Below, one piece after another: positions 5,209-31,279 of a stretch of 32,164 nucleotides of DNA. A program made the position numbers and the translations under genes. The notes beneath the pieces were generated by a model. The model made no database searches and was not told where the DNA came from. It was given only the letters and a program-made list of their open reading frames with translations. Origin of the DNA: a bacterium (GTDB taxonomy: Bacteria > UBP14 > UBA6098); assembly GCA_003645085.1 (NCBI GenBank), contig QNEE01000008.1, forward strand, positions 1 through 32,164. The letters run 5' to 3'. Each line of letters begins with the position of its first letter. Positions within the stretch are counted from its first letter, which is position 1.

Positions 5209-6174
5209 CTAATTACCTTTCACCCACTCGCAGGACCTATCGCTGGTATCGGCCTTTATCCGTTTTTTACACCACCATCTATCGAGCTTCGGGGAGACAA
5301 AATAAACGAATATCGCCAGAGCGAAACCTGCGAGTATATCGATAACGTAATGGTGGCGAAGATAAACAGTCCCTAAAATCAGGCCGACCGCTATCGGCAA
5401 AAATGCCCAGAACATCGTCCGAGCATGTTTGAACGCGTATATCATCGCCAGCAATGTCGTGCCACAATGGAGGCTTGGAAAAGCCGCACGGCTGCTCGCC
5501 GCGGAGATAATAACCGTCCGCTGGGCGGCATCGAAAAAATAGCCGTAGAAATTCCTTGTGAATTGGTCGGCGAGCACCAATCTCGGTGGAGCCGCCGGGA
5601 AAGCGATATATAAAAAATACCCGAAATAATAACTCAAAACAACCCCCAGCAAAGCCTCGCGATATTCAAAATATTTTCTCCTAAAATAGAGCGTAAAAGG
5701 AACAACCAACGGGATTATAAAGTAGTTCATATAGCAGAAGCTGAAAAATTCCGTCAAAATCGGATGATAGAACTTCTGCGCCCAGAGCACCGGCTGAACA
5801 CCAAACATCCAAGCATCGATTTTTATAAGAATATCGTGAATATCGTGCGGGTTGACAAAGTAGATAGTATCGTGCAAATTCGTATAGATAGCTACTGCGA
5901 GACCGAACGGCGCAGCCTCCCGAATAAAGCAGTAGATTTTTCCGCCGGGATTCCATTTCCGTAATGCGATAAACACCGCAATAAGAAAAAAAACGGCGAT
6001 AAGCCGCTGAAGGTCGCCCCGAATGTATTTCGGGATGTTACCGCCCGCAGAGAAATAGCCGTGCGCCCGAAGTGTAATAACGACCATAGGTAAAAGGAAT
6101 ACGACCGCTACTAACTCCTCGAATCTCAAACGAAGAGCCAGCCGTTTTATTTTTGTATAAATAACCGCTGCCAT
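5209..6174 (-). CDS. PAP2-superfamily membrane phosphatase (paralogue 2)
   Basis: AAFPSLHCGTTLLAM and YLRHHYVIDILAG motifs. Start moved from 6348 to internal ATG 6174 (MAAVIYTKIKR) because the longer N-terminus runs through the 6254-6421 cloverleaf. Confidence 0.8.
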   Translation of the reverse strand: MAAVIYTKIKRLALRLRFEELVAVVFLLPMVVITLRAHGYFSAGGNIPKYIRGDLQRLIAVFFLIAVFIALRKWNPGGKIYCFIREAAPFGLAVAIYTNLHDTIYFVNPHDIHDILIKIDAWMFGVQPVLWAQKFYHPILTEFFSFCYMNYFIIPLVVPFTLYFRRKYFEYREALLGVVLSYYFGYFLYIAFPAAPPRLVLADQFTRNFYGYFFDAAQRTVIISAASSRAAFPSLHCGTTLLAMIYAFKHARTMFWAFLPIAVGLILGTVYLRHHYVIDILAGFALAIFVYFVSPKLDRWWCKKRIKADTSDRSCEWVKGN

Positions 6175-6253
6175 TGTGCCGAATAATAGTTTTATTCGCG
6201 CGGTATGGCAATAGGAATTTGAATGGCCAGTAGTAAAGGTCGAAATGTTATCA

Positions 6254-6421
6254 GGGGCGTCGGCGCGACCTATAGGTCGCAAGAGCAGATTACCCGAATA
6301 AAAATTTACCAGACAACCAGACGGCGCGCGGGTAATCTGCTCTTCCACCGCGTTGAATCCGAAAAGGGTTACGGTTATGTCGAAAGTCGCGGCATGGATT
6401 CAACGCGGCAGCCGACGCCCC
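6254..6421. repeat. Cloverleaf-like element: 11-bp outer stem enclosing three perfect hairpins
   Basis: ggggcgtcggc (6254-6264)/gccgacgcccc (6411-6421); gcgacctataggtcgc (6265-6280); aagagcagattacccg (6281-6296)/cgggtaatctgctctt (6329-6344); ccgcgttgaatcc (6348-6360)/ggattcaacgcgg (6396-6408). All arms perfectly complementary. Confidence 0.85.
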
Positions 6422-6652
6422 GAAATCGGCAATCCGTCGGATATTTGCCCTCGGGCGTTTTTCTCACCAGGATTAACGGAGAAGATTTAATTAAAAAAAT
6501 AGTCCTTTATATAGTCCTTGAATAAGATAAATAAAAATCGCTTTGCTTAACATTTCATATTCCGTATATTTAATTGTATTAGGTTTATTTAGTTTAGTCT
6601 TGAACTTGAAACGTAAAATAATAAAAAAACCATTCTCGCAAGGAGGAAAAGA

Positions 6653-8341
6653 ATGAGAAAGACGTTGATTTTCGGTCTGTTTATGTTCGGAGTAGTATCG
6701 GTTTTTGCCGCTATTCCGCAGCTTATCTCTTATCAGGGATTGCTGACGGACGATGTAACCGGCGACCCGGTCCCCGACGGTTACTACGATATAACATTCA
6801 GGATTTACGATTCAGAAAGCGGCGGGACCGCCTTATGGACAGAGGCTCACGTTGGAATCAGTCAGGTCTTCGTCGAGGACGGTCTGTATAAAGTAATGCT
6901 CGGTTCGCTCGTCCCTCTCGACTTGCCTTTCGATGAAACATATTGGCTCGGCGTTCAGGTTGGCATCGACCCTGAGATGTCCCCGCGCTACTTGCTGGGC
7001 GCGAGTCCCTATGCCCTCCGCGCGGCTGTCGCGGACAGTATGCACGGCGGCGGGAACTATATTACGAGCGATGCTCCGGATATAATGACCGCAACGACCT
7101 CCGGGAACCTTCTTACAGTGGACAATCCCGGAAACGGAAGAGCTATCTACGCGAAAACGGGTTCGACTACGGACTATATCGCGGCGATAAAAGGCGAGGC
7201 CACGGGCGTAACCGGAGCGGTTCAGGCGCTTGCCGGGTGGATTCAATCGACAGCCGACGAAGCGTGCGGTGTCTATGGTGTCGCGACATCATCGACCGGC
7301 GCCGCCGATGGAGTTGTCGGGCAAACCTTGAACTCTGACGGTTACGGCGGGTATTTTATGGGTGGTAAGGGTCTTTATGCCTCGGATATCGTATGCCCGG
7401 GTCAAGCCGCTGTCGGGACGACGAATCCACTCGCCAGATTACACGTCGAAGAGGACGCTACAGCCGACCCGTTGAGAGTGCGCGTGGCCGGACTAACGAA
7501 ATTTATCGTCAAGAACGATGGCAATGTCGGCGTAGGTGTATTATCTCCACAGAACAAACTCGATGTCGAGGGCGCGATGGTCGTCGGGACAAGCTTTTCA
7601 GGCACGAGCGTGGCACCGTCCAGCGGACTTCTCGTCCAGGGCAACGTTGGACTGGGGACCGACGACCCCGGGCTGCACAAGCTCTATGTCGAATCATCCG
7701 GCAGCGGGACGTCAGGAACCACTATCTATGCGGAAAATACCAATTCGAGCGGAATCGCCGCACATTTTCTTAACGAGTCGAGCGACGTAACGCTACTGGT
7801 TACTAATAAAAGCGATGGGGACGTTTTCCGCTGCGATAGCTGGCACAGCGGAAGCTGGGAATGGGTTTTCAAGGTCGATAAGGACGGGAAGGCGATATGC
7901 AACGTGCTCCAGATACTCGGCGGTTCGGACCTTTCCGAGCAGTTCGATATCGAGGATTCCGATGTAATCGAACCCGGTATGGTCCTGATTATCGACCCTG
8001 AAAATCCGGGAAAACTCAGGATTTCGGATACTGCATACGACCGGCGAGTCGCGGGAATAGTCAGCGGCGCGGGAGATATCGAGACCGGAATGCTTATGGG
8101 CCAAAAAGGTTCCGTCGCCGACGGTTCTTATCCGGTGGCTCTTACCGGCCGTGCTTATGTTCTGGCCGACGCGTCGAATTCTCCTATCGAGCCGGGGGAT
8201 TTGCTTACGACATCCGATATACCCGGATACGCGATGAAAGCCACGGATTATGAAAAAGCGCACGGCGCGGTTATTGGAAAGGCTATGACTCCGCTTACCG
8301 GTGGGAAGGGTCTCGTTCTTACCTTAATAACATTGCAATAA
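6653..8341 (+). CDS. Secreted/surface protein (YQGLLTDDVTGDPVPDGYYDITFRIYD family)
   Basis: RBS aaggagg; signal peptide; Ala/Gly/Ser/Thr-rich repetitive body. Confidence 0.65.
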   Translation: MRKTLIFGLFMFGVVSVFAAIPQLISYQGLLTDDVTGDPVPDGYYDITFRIYDSESGGTALWTEAHVGISQVFVEDGLYKVMLGSLVPLDLPFDETYWLGVQVGIDPEMSPRYLLGASPYALRAAVADSMHGGGNYITSDAPDIMTATTSGNLLTVDNPGNGRAIYAKTGSTTDYIAAIKGEATGVTGAVQALAGWIQSTADEACGVYGVATSSTGAADGVVGQTLNSDGYGGYFMGGKGLYASDIVCPGQAAVGTTNPLARLHVEEDATADPLRVRVAGLTKFIVKNDGNVGVGVLSPQNKLDVEGAMVVGTSFSGTSVAPSSGLLVQGNVGLGTDDPGLHKLYVESSGSGTSGTTIYAENTNSSGIAAHFLNESSDVTLLVTNKSDGDVFRCDSWHSGSWEWVFKVDKDGKAICNVLQILGGSDLSEQFDIEDSDVIEPGMVLIIDPENPGKLRISDTAYDRRVAGIVSGAGDIETGMLMGQKGSVADGSYPVALTGRAYVLADASNSPIEPGDLLTTSDIPGYAMKATDYEKAHGAVIGKAMTPLTGGKGLVLTLITLQ

Positions 8342-27386: not shown

Positions 27387-27463
27387 GGCTGGCGCGAGAG
27401 AAGTGTCTTTGTTGGGTTAGGAGTCCGTGCGCCCGAAGGGCTTTGCACGGAGCGTGACAGCAG
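27387..27463 (+). repeat. Dispersed structured hairpin repeat, copy 2
   Basis: GGCTGGCGCGAGAG...GTGTCTTTG...TCCGTGCGCCCGAAGGGCTTTGCACGGAGCGTGACAGC. Confidence 0.75.
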
Positions 27464-28176: not shown

Positions 28177-28278
28177 GGCTGTCACGCTCCGTGCTACGCC
28201 CTCATAAGGTTAATTGAAAACATTAATATCGGGCGCACGGATTCCCTGCGCCACAAAGACACCACTCTCGTGCCAGCC
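28177..28278 (-). repeat. Dispersed structured hairpin repeat, copy 3 (inverted)
   Basis: Reverse complement GGCTGGCACGAGAGTGGTGTCTTTG...TCCGTGCGCCC...GGGCGTAGCACGGAGCGTGACAGCC. Confidence 0.78.
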
Positions 28279-29885: not shown

Positions 29886-31279
29886 ATGCCTTCGGGAAGG
29901 TGCTTAAGGCATCTTTGAAAATGGGAACACGAGAAAAGGTTCTTCGGGACCTTTTTAAGGAACCCAAGCCAAAGGTCGCTCGTGGGAGCTGCCCACCGGC
30001 GGCATTGAAAACGGACTAAGGAACCCAGTGCCACAGGGCGGCGTGTAGAAACGCCGCAATCGGTCGACGACGGTTTCGAACCCCTCGCGGGTGCGCAAAG
30101 GGATACCCGATGCGCAAGCAAAATCGAAACAGGAGAAAACCGAGCCCCAAGGTGGACCCGGAATATTCCGCTCGATATAGCGCACTAAAAACGCGCTGGA
30201 AACATCGGAAATCGACGGGAACGCTGTAGCCTTCGGGCTGTCTATCGGGAGAAAAACCCGCGGTGAAAAAGCGGAAACGGAGATTCTGAAATATCGAAAG
30301 GACCCGACACCCGTGCCTTCGGGCACTACGCGAGAAACGCGCCCTTCGGGGTCGTTCGAGGGTAACCTCGAACGGGCAACGCGAGTTTTTCACGGAAAAT
30401 GTCGCCGGGAAGGCGCCAACGCGGCATTTCGGATATAACGTCTTTCGCGCCCTTCGGGGTTCGTTATCGGGAACGGTAACGAGGTAACGCAGAAAACGTA
30501 AAATCCGACCGAACATTCGAAACGAGTTCCGCCTCCTTTAGGGGAGAGAAACCGCCGAAAGGCGGTCGAGGCAACGCGGAATACTCGTAAACCGAGTAAT
30601 CGGAAGCCGCAAAGTTTCACGGTTAACACGCCCTTCGGGGTCGAGTCGACGAAAGAACTCTCGGGCAACGCGAAAAACCGTAAGAAATAAGCGCTTCCCT
30701 GTTCCGAACACGGTAAACGCGCCTTCGGGTGAAGCTGTCTAAAGGCAGTTTCGGAAACGCGAGAAACCGTAAGCTCGGTAGGTCTAACGCAAGGCACGGA
30801 TGACGCGCCCTTCGGGGTCGAGTCGACGAAAGAACACTCGGGCAACGCGAAAACTCGAAAGCCAAACGGCGGAAACCTGAAAAGCAGGCGGAGCAAGCGC
30901 CTTCGGGTCGGCCGATAGGAATATCGACCGGTTAAAGCTAAACTCCGAACCGCAATTCTGAAAATTCCGGGCGCAAACCGGGAACCGGTCGGGAATCGAA
31001 TCGGGTCGAAATATACTCGACAAGATAACCGAATAGGCCGGCAAGCGAAAAAATCCGCAAACGGCAACGCATTATACAGAATGCGTTTGCAAGCCGGGGT
31101 TACGAAGGAACCGAGCCCTTCGGGGCCTGCGGAGAAATACCGCAGGGGAAACCTCGGAACACGTAGAAACCCGGACCGCTGAAGGATTGTCGGAAATCAA
31201 ACCCCTTCAATCCGGTATATGGCCGAAAAATCCTGCCCACGAGCATTAGAGGGTCGTCTTCGGACGACCCTCTTTTTTT
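29886..31279 (+). ncRNA. Large, highly structured, modular noncoding RNA of unrecognised family
   Basis: No credible CDS; about 12 cUUCGg hairpins, GNRA-type loops, A-rich linkers, repeated three-way-junction modules, terminal intrinsic terminator on the same strand. Confidence 0.8.
31248..31279 (+). terminator. Strong intrinsic terminator ending the ncRNA
   Basis: agagggtcgtc (31248-31258) UUCG gacgaccctct (31263-31273), then a T run. Confidence 0.92.

Follow-up and report, generated by a model that had tools for sequence, protein, structure and literature searches.

The stretch of bacterial DNA analysed here (the window, 32,164 nt, contig QNEE01000008.1 of assembly GCA_003645085.1) holds, upstream of two divergent genes, a sequence in which a sequence-only reading had noticed a perfectly paired four-way cloverleaf, and the question raised by this locus is whether such a structure is a nonautonomous palindromic element, a structured RNA or something else. 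Each of the stems could be re-read exactly as claimed, with 11 bp in the outer stem, 16 bp in the middle stem and 13 bp in the third stem, all of them perfect (Table 1). The unpaired nucleotides at the junction are, in order, none, none, CCA and CA (0, 0, 3 and 2). Folded as single-stranded DNA, the window copy reaches -55.6 kcal/mol, compared with -30.9 ± 3.3 kcal/mol in 200 shuffles (z = -7.4), and none of the shuffles (0/200) was equally stable. Together with the multicopy family described below, this bears out the claim that the arrangement is very unlikely by chance.

Table 1 Features of the window copy and of its surroundings (positions in the window)
Feature	Position	Strand	Remark
Four-way palindromic element, window copy	6254..6421	+	Canonical orientation: short-loop hairpin first
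Outer arm 5' GGGGCGTCGGC	6254..6264	+	Contains the CGTC motif; partner 6411-6421
Hairpin 1, palindrome GCGACCTATAGGTCGC, 16 nt	6265..6280	.	GCGACC TATA GGTCGC
Middle stem 5' arm AAGAGCAGATTACCCG	6281..6296	+	
Middle-stem loop, 32 nt	6297..6328	+	Corresponds to the sorting-domain core, in decayed form
Middle stem 3' arm CGGGTAATCTGCTCTT	6329..6344	+	
Third stem 5' arm CCGCGTTGAATCC	6348..6360	+	
Third-stem loop, 35 nt	6361..6395	+	
Third stem 3' arm GGATTCAACGCGG	6396..6408	+	
Outer arm 3' GCCGACGCCCC	6411..6421	+	Partner 6254-6264
100-codon ORF, type IX sorting domain relic	6223..6525	+	IKIYQTTRRRAG ... LPSGVFLTRINGEDLIKKIVLY
PAP2 phosphatase gene (PF14378)	5209..6174	-	Start ~6174; element not included
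Downstream gene	6653..8341	+	No match in Pfam

The element had been placed in a divergent intergenic region, with the reservation that homologous loci might show it to be the coding N-terminus of the PAP2 gene. In a related genome, the homologue of the PAP2 gene aligns only from window position 6153, on the minus strand, which indicates that the element is not PAP2 coding sequence, as the homology stops short of it. The location outside the PAP2 gene therefore stands, but the region is not plainly empty, since the plus strand contains the relic of a type IX sorting domain, which the sequence-only reading had missed, together with the coding nature of most copies in the same genome. The ORF in question resembles the 3' end of a sorting-domain gene in a state of decay, with the other parts absent; it has no in-frame PNPFN start, and the sorting-domain models give no match to it. 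The middle loop of the window copy encodes IKIYQTTRRRA, at the place where coding copies have IEIFDITGRLVA.

BLAST of the window region against its own genome (G000) returned the region itself and 11 other sites, with 67-84% identity, and the exact outer arm GGGGCGTCGGC is present there as 13 inverted pairs. Once arm variants were allowed, 18 four-way copies could be parsed in G000, and ~47 more in relatives of the same family, located through the core GGCG(T/G)CGG (~22 in G002, ~24 in G004 and 1 in G003). This amounts to about 65 copies over four related genomes, all numbers being lower bounds (G000 is a fragmented MAG of 268 contigs, ~90% complete). In total, 66 structures were parsed, of which the second one in L145 is a chance match, while a few more, among them one copy of G002, depart somewhat from the regular form. 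With a covariance model of 16 G000 copies, used to search the relatives, the family was detected in G002, G003 and G004, and neither the 12 class-level genomes nor G001 of the same family gave a match. A pattern scan over wider taxa found genuine copies only in two family-level MAGs, UBA6098 (UBP14) and SpSt-1142 (Ca. Zixiibacteriota), which are already counted among the three relatives. A wider taxonomic spread was rejected, the remaining single matches, mostly in GC-rich genomes, being without the three-hairpin interior. Copies elsewhere in the genome and in relatives, which the sequence-only reading had proposed to look for, are thus present and dispersed, in G000 and in three relatives.

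Gene contexts, based on simple ORF calling, show the copies in both directions with respect to genes, and the element carries no gene of its own. The majority of those in G002 and G004 are intergenic, in unidirectional, divergent and convergent settings, and two copies of G000 (C73 and C198) have no sorting domain around them. We also observed in G000 a larger four-way element of 224 bp (L170 1497-1720, G000:C149), with an identical outer arm, longer loops and unrelated arms.

Apart from the chance match and the less regular structures, the copies are built alike: the outer arm (GG)GGCGTCGG(C) is followed by a short-loop hairpin, a middle stem enclosing ~32 nt, a third stem and, at the far end, the tag in inverted form. 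The first 10 positions of the outer arm are invariant in 16 of the 16 aligned G000 copies. Hairpin 1 is mostly GCGACC, CCGACC, GCGAG, GCGCG or GGCCG, with loops of 3-4 nt, stem lengths range from ~5 to 20 bp across the family, and the loop of the third stem is long in G000 and part of G002, and short in nearly all G004 copies and in the rest of G002. The sequences of the arms vary between species, yet their pairing is kept. In the 16 G000 copies 97.3% of cells are paired, against 32-43% in slid controls, and the changed cells are two-sided in 47 cases and one-sided in 2. Two-sided changes are found in 20 pairs, compared with 6.6 in shuffles, and none of 500 shuffles reaches 20. In the stems of G004 two-sided changes dominate too, with few one-sided cells. 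The covariance analysis that had been suggested shows the pairings preserved, with compensated changes above those of all shuffles. Relative to the commonest pair, the window copy has seven changed pairs, all compensated (7/7), including the one that closes the short hairpin loop. Its coding sequence has decayed and yet every change in its stems is compensated, which indicates that pairing outlived the protein.

G.T accounts for only 0.7-1.8% of the stem pairs in the four genomes. An RNA helix would be expected to contain more G.U, and the scarcity of these pairs points to a DNA structure rather than an RNA. Few G.T pairs and two-sided changes would fit either folding on both strands or arms copied from one another. 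In addition, the outer stem runs on into the locus-specific flanks beyond a swapped-flank null in G002 (4.0 vs 1.3) and G004 (4.0 vs 2.5), as would be expected if palindromes grow by a putative copying process; in G000 this extension is not above the null. The parsed copies are inverted pairs by design of the search, but the tag count in G002 is independent of that: 1.18 Mb of this genome contain 185 GGCGTCGG sites, of which 57 are matched by an inverted one within 50-250 nt, and lone tags with a hairpin number only 7.

Fourteen of the 18 copies of G000 lie in frame within C-terminal type IX secretion sorting domains (Por_Secre_tail), in one orientation and one frame. The host proteins are otherwise unrelated and include an M1 peptidase, a CocE/NonD hydrolase, an amidase and a golvesin-domain protein. 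SprA_N was found in all four genomes tested (4/4). The genome of the window and its relatives have from ~60 to >180 sorting-domain matches each, a large type IX secretion repertoire.

An empty domain of the same genome reads PNPFN...VEIFDINGR...IWKPEASVGGGVYLVR, and the carrier domains read PNPFN...RGVGATDRSQGQ-VGLEIFDITGRLV-ADLPFSRTES...DSVRxPTP-LIWTPDES. This comparison shows that the arms occupy two zones flanking the core strand, which itself forms the loop of the middle stem, where the coding copies have the sorting-domain motif IEIFDITGRLV. The insertion is in frame, and splits the sorting-domain profile by ~30 extra residues that are absent from empty domains of that family. The carriers that were scanned match Por_Secre_tail (PF18962 / TIGR04183), several of them with scores under the curated threshold, as would follow from a profile interrupted by the insert. 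AlphaFold gave a model of moderate quality (mean pLDDT 65.8) with low confidence in segments 25-49 and 71-89, which are largely the inserted peptides and form loops flanked by strands of the domain. A literature search, limited in extent, for palindromes in type IX sorting domains turned up nothing.

The domain core held in the loop is 77% identical among carriers, whereas carriers and empty domains share 60% (p = 0.0002). In the sequence outside the element, carriers are more alike by 3.7 points on the downstream side (p = 0.055) and by 7.5 points on the upstream side (p = 0.001). With the similarity of the core so high and the excess just outside much smaller, the cassette and the domain core seem to travel together. 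Copy L148 of G002 is likewise placed inside a sorting domain whose core lies in the middle loop. In G003 there is a sorting domain with the left half only, whose hairpin is identical to that of L148 and whose arm resembles one in G000, which indicates that halves can persist alone. In a separate observation, the sorting domains of L258, L277, L266, L251 and others contain a second palindrome, GTAGGGGC...GCCCCTAC, which occurs separately in the zones before and after the core strand.

The loops of non-CTD copies show no detectable relation to the domain core. We considered them as decayed domain cores and rejected this, given a mean z of ~1 in a profile test and an inconsistent strand preference; among the copies compared, no intermediate links the intergenic form with the domain form. 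Captured target DNA was also rejected as the source of all loops, since those of G004 share a consensus and therefore belong there to the element. Regarding insertion, direct flanking repeats in G000, G002 and G004 are no longer than in swapped flanks, so no target-site duplication was detected. The relatives provided no clean site before and after an insertion event, their genes being ~65-80% identical and their intergenic regions impossible to align. In the 1.18 Mb of G002 used for empty-site comparison, synteny is often broken and the flanks are too diverged. The same divergence prevents reading of the junction at one G004 site that is without the element in G002, and at the PAP2 orthologue of G002, which is 70% identical, has another upstream neighbour and lacks the element. 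The cognate transposase or recombinase that had been proposed as a search target did not appear: neither a RAYT nor a Y1 gene adjoins any copy, and the seven loci with a Y1 transposase (Y1_Tnp, PF01797) in five genomes have no GGCGTCGG site.

Other repeats were observed in the course of this work. The repeat GGCTGNCACGCTCCGTGC occurs in the window at 2852-2869, 27445-27462 and 28177-28194 and at 58 sites of the genome (≤1 mismatch), with a partner motif AGTCCGTGCG near it, and one of its copies lies ~110 bp downstream of a Y1 transposase-like gene (G000:C94), possibly as an element-enzyme pair. At ~1501 of L378 (G000:C60), a RAYT-like Y1 transposase domain lies in frame inside a methylase-like ORF of 1648 residues, surrounded by in-frame GTAG-tagged palindromes GTAGGACAGACATTCTTGTCTGTCC. 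Window positions 30618-30861 contain a 67-nt sequence three times, with a spacing of ~89 nt.

The most probable explanation, in our view, is a family of REPIN-like, CGTC-tagged, non-autonomous palindromic elements with a four-way junction fold. This reading builds on direct observations: the architecture, a tag common to the copies, their dispersal, the in-frame residence in type IX sorting domains and the changes compensated in both arms. In its structure the element is a head-to-head pair of REP-like units, each made of a GGCGTCGG tag and a hairpin, joined by a spacer whose ends pair around the ~32-nt loop, according to the REPIN plan. Copies may have moved as single-stranded or recombinational intermediates, through an enzyme acting in trans and without target-site duplication. 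The pattern of changes suggests that the arms are kept matched mainly through template switching at the palindrome, one arm being copied onto the other, which would keep the pairing even in the dead gene end of the window. Template switching has been documented for hairpins (PMC8794818) and quasipalindromes (PMC7202029). Sorting domains may accumulate the element as a result of where its peptide comes to lie, in two disordered surface loops, and among sorting-domain genes the cassette seems to be handed on as one piece, including the domain core strand in its loop.

Several known systems resemble this element. REPINs (Bertels and Rainey 2011, PMC3116915) are likewise inverted pairs of palindromic units with a spacer, non-autonomous and dispersed in the genome, and the repeated inverted pair with spacer is found here. 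In contrast to the REPIN/RAYT system, there is no GTAG tag, no RAYT gene is flanked by the element or lies beside any copy, and the spacer forms a stem of its own, giving a four-way junction instead of the single hairpin of a REPIN. CGTC-tagged REP units have an unpaired CGTC tag, stems of 8-9 bp that almost always begin with complementary AT, loops of 4-5 nt and mostly a CCA tail, and a dedicated transposase was reported absent (Di Nocera et al. 2013, PMC3733652). Our element shares with them CGTC at the outer ends, head-to-head dimers, complementary spacer ends, members within ORFs and the lack of a dedicated transposase (PMC3733652), but its CGTC pairs with GACG of the opposite arm inside the outer stem, its stems have ~5 to 20 bp, the CCA tail is absent and the three-hairpin interior is kept across genera. 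Head-to-head dimers are thus present, whereas the unpaired tag and the unit of AT-start stem, loop and CCA tail are not, and since this defining unit structure fails the element is not filed as a member of the CGTC-tagged REPs.

Rickettsia palindromic elements (RPE, as described in PMC3733652) are also palindromic repeats in frame in protein genes, and in-frame insertion in otherwise homologous proteins is what we found; RPEs are reported in varied proteins, whereas here the copies are concentrated in one export domain with its core strand in the loop. Coding palindromes and template-switch hairpins (PMC6649704, PMC8794818) share the perfect inverted repeats in coding sequence and the compensatory changes in two arms, but are not dispersed multicopy bacterial elements with a shared tag. 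MITEs have terminal inverted repeats, no genes, a size of ~70-300 bp and a dispersed distribution, as is the case here, but the present family has no target-site duplication above the null, a conserved junction interior and no parent transposon that we could find.

A bolder version, which we regard as possible but rather unlikely, is that a foldable cassette captured the core strand of the export domain in the loop of its junction and homes by that sequence into genes with the same domain, adding arms on both sides. The element may also not be mobile by itself, but descend from a palindrome that long ago inserted into one sorting domain and was spread by duplication and recombination of domain-bearing gene ends, with the arms as passengers. 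This would account for the orientation, frame and domain common to 14 of the 18 G000 copies, for the left-half domain of G003, which points to an old insertion, and for the upstream PNPFN stretch, which is also somewhat more alike among carriers. We consider it unlikely, given that G002 and G004 have ~45 copies, mostly intergenic and with loops unrelated to the domain, that C73 and C198 stand without a surrounding domain, and that the similarity among carriers drops beyond the outer stem.

It is less probable still that the family represents a functional DNA site under selection, i.e. a junction or cruciform recognised by some host protein, for instance in recombination, chromosome organisation or transcription termination. 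In favour of such a site, the plan and the outer arm are strongly conserved across genera, and the near absence of G.T pairs suggests that folding is needed on both strands, but the copy number varies from ~1 to ~24 between species of one genus, no fixed relation of the copies to genes was seen, the window copy is still paired in a dead gene end, and those of G000 are mostly confined to one protein domain. The RNA half of the initial proposal, a structured or cis-regulatory RNA, now appears very improbable: strong fold and covariation are compatible with it in principle, but genes are found on either side of the copies in both directions, some copies lie within ORFs, G.T makes up a mere ~1% of pairs, one-sided changes are almost nil, and Rfam gave no covariance-model match at the gathering score. 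The other half, a nonautonomous palindromic element, is upheld by dispersed copies on a conserved plan, in either orientation and with no gene. The likelihood of a chance or coding-composition artefact is negligible, and it is already refuted by copy number; the outer-arm pattern does match by chance in GC-rich genomes, but such matches are without the three-hairpin interior, and neither the fold (z = -7.4), nor ~65 copies on one plan, nor the covariation (0/500 shuffles) would be explained.

The preferred reading, a REPIN-like element, is thus of a known kind, and what is notable in it are the four-way plan, the concentration in one protein domain and the domain core in the loop. The family is of interest because a compact bacterial group has ~65 copies with a fixed four-way architecture in gene-borne and intergenic forms, and because surface loops of exported proteins are populated by palindromic repeats. 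As the arms are still matched in a dead gene, selection and template-switch copying become directly testable against each other. If the homing cassette were true, it would be a mobile palindrome that spreads via protein-domain homology, with its arms renewed by template switching.
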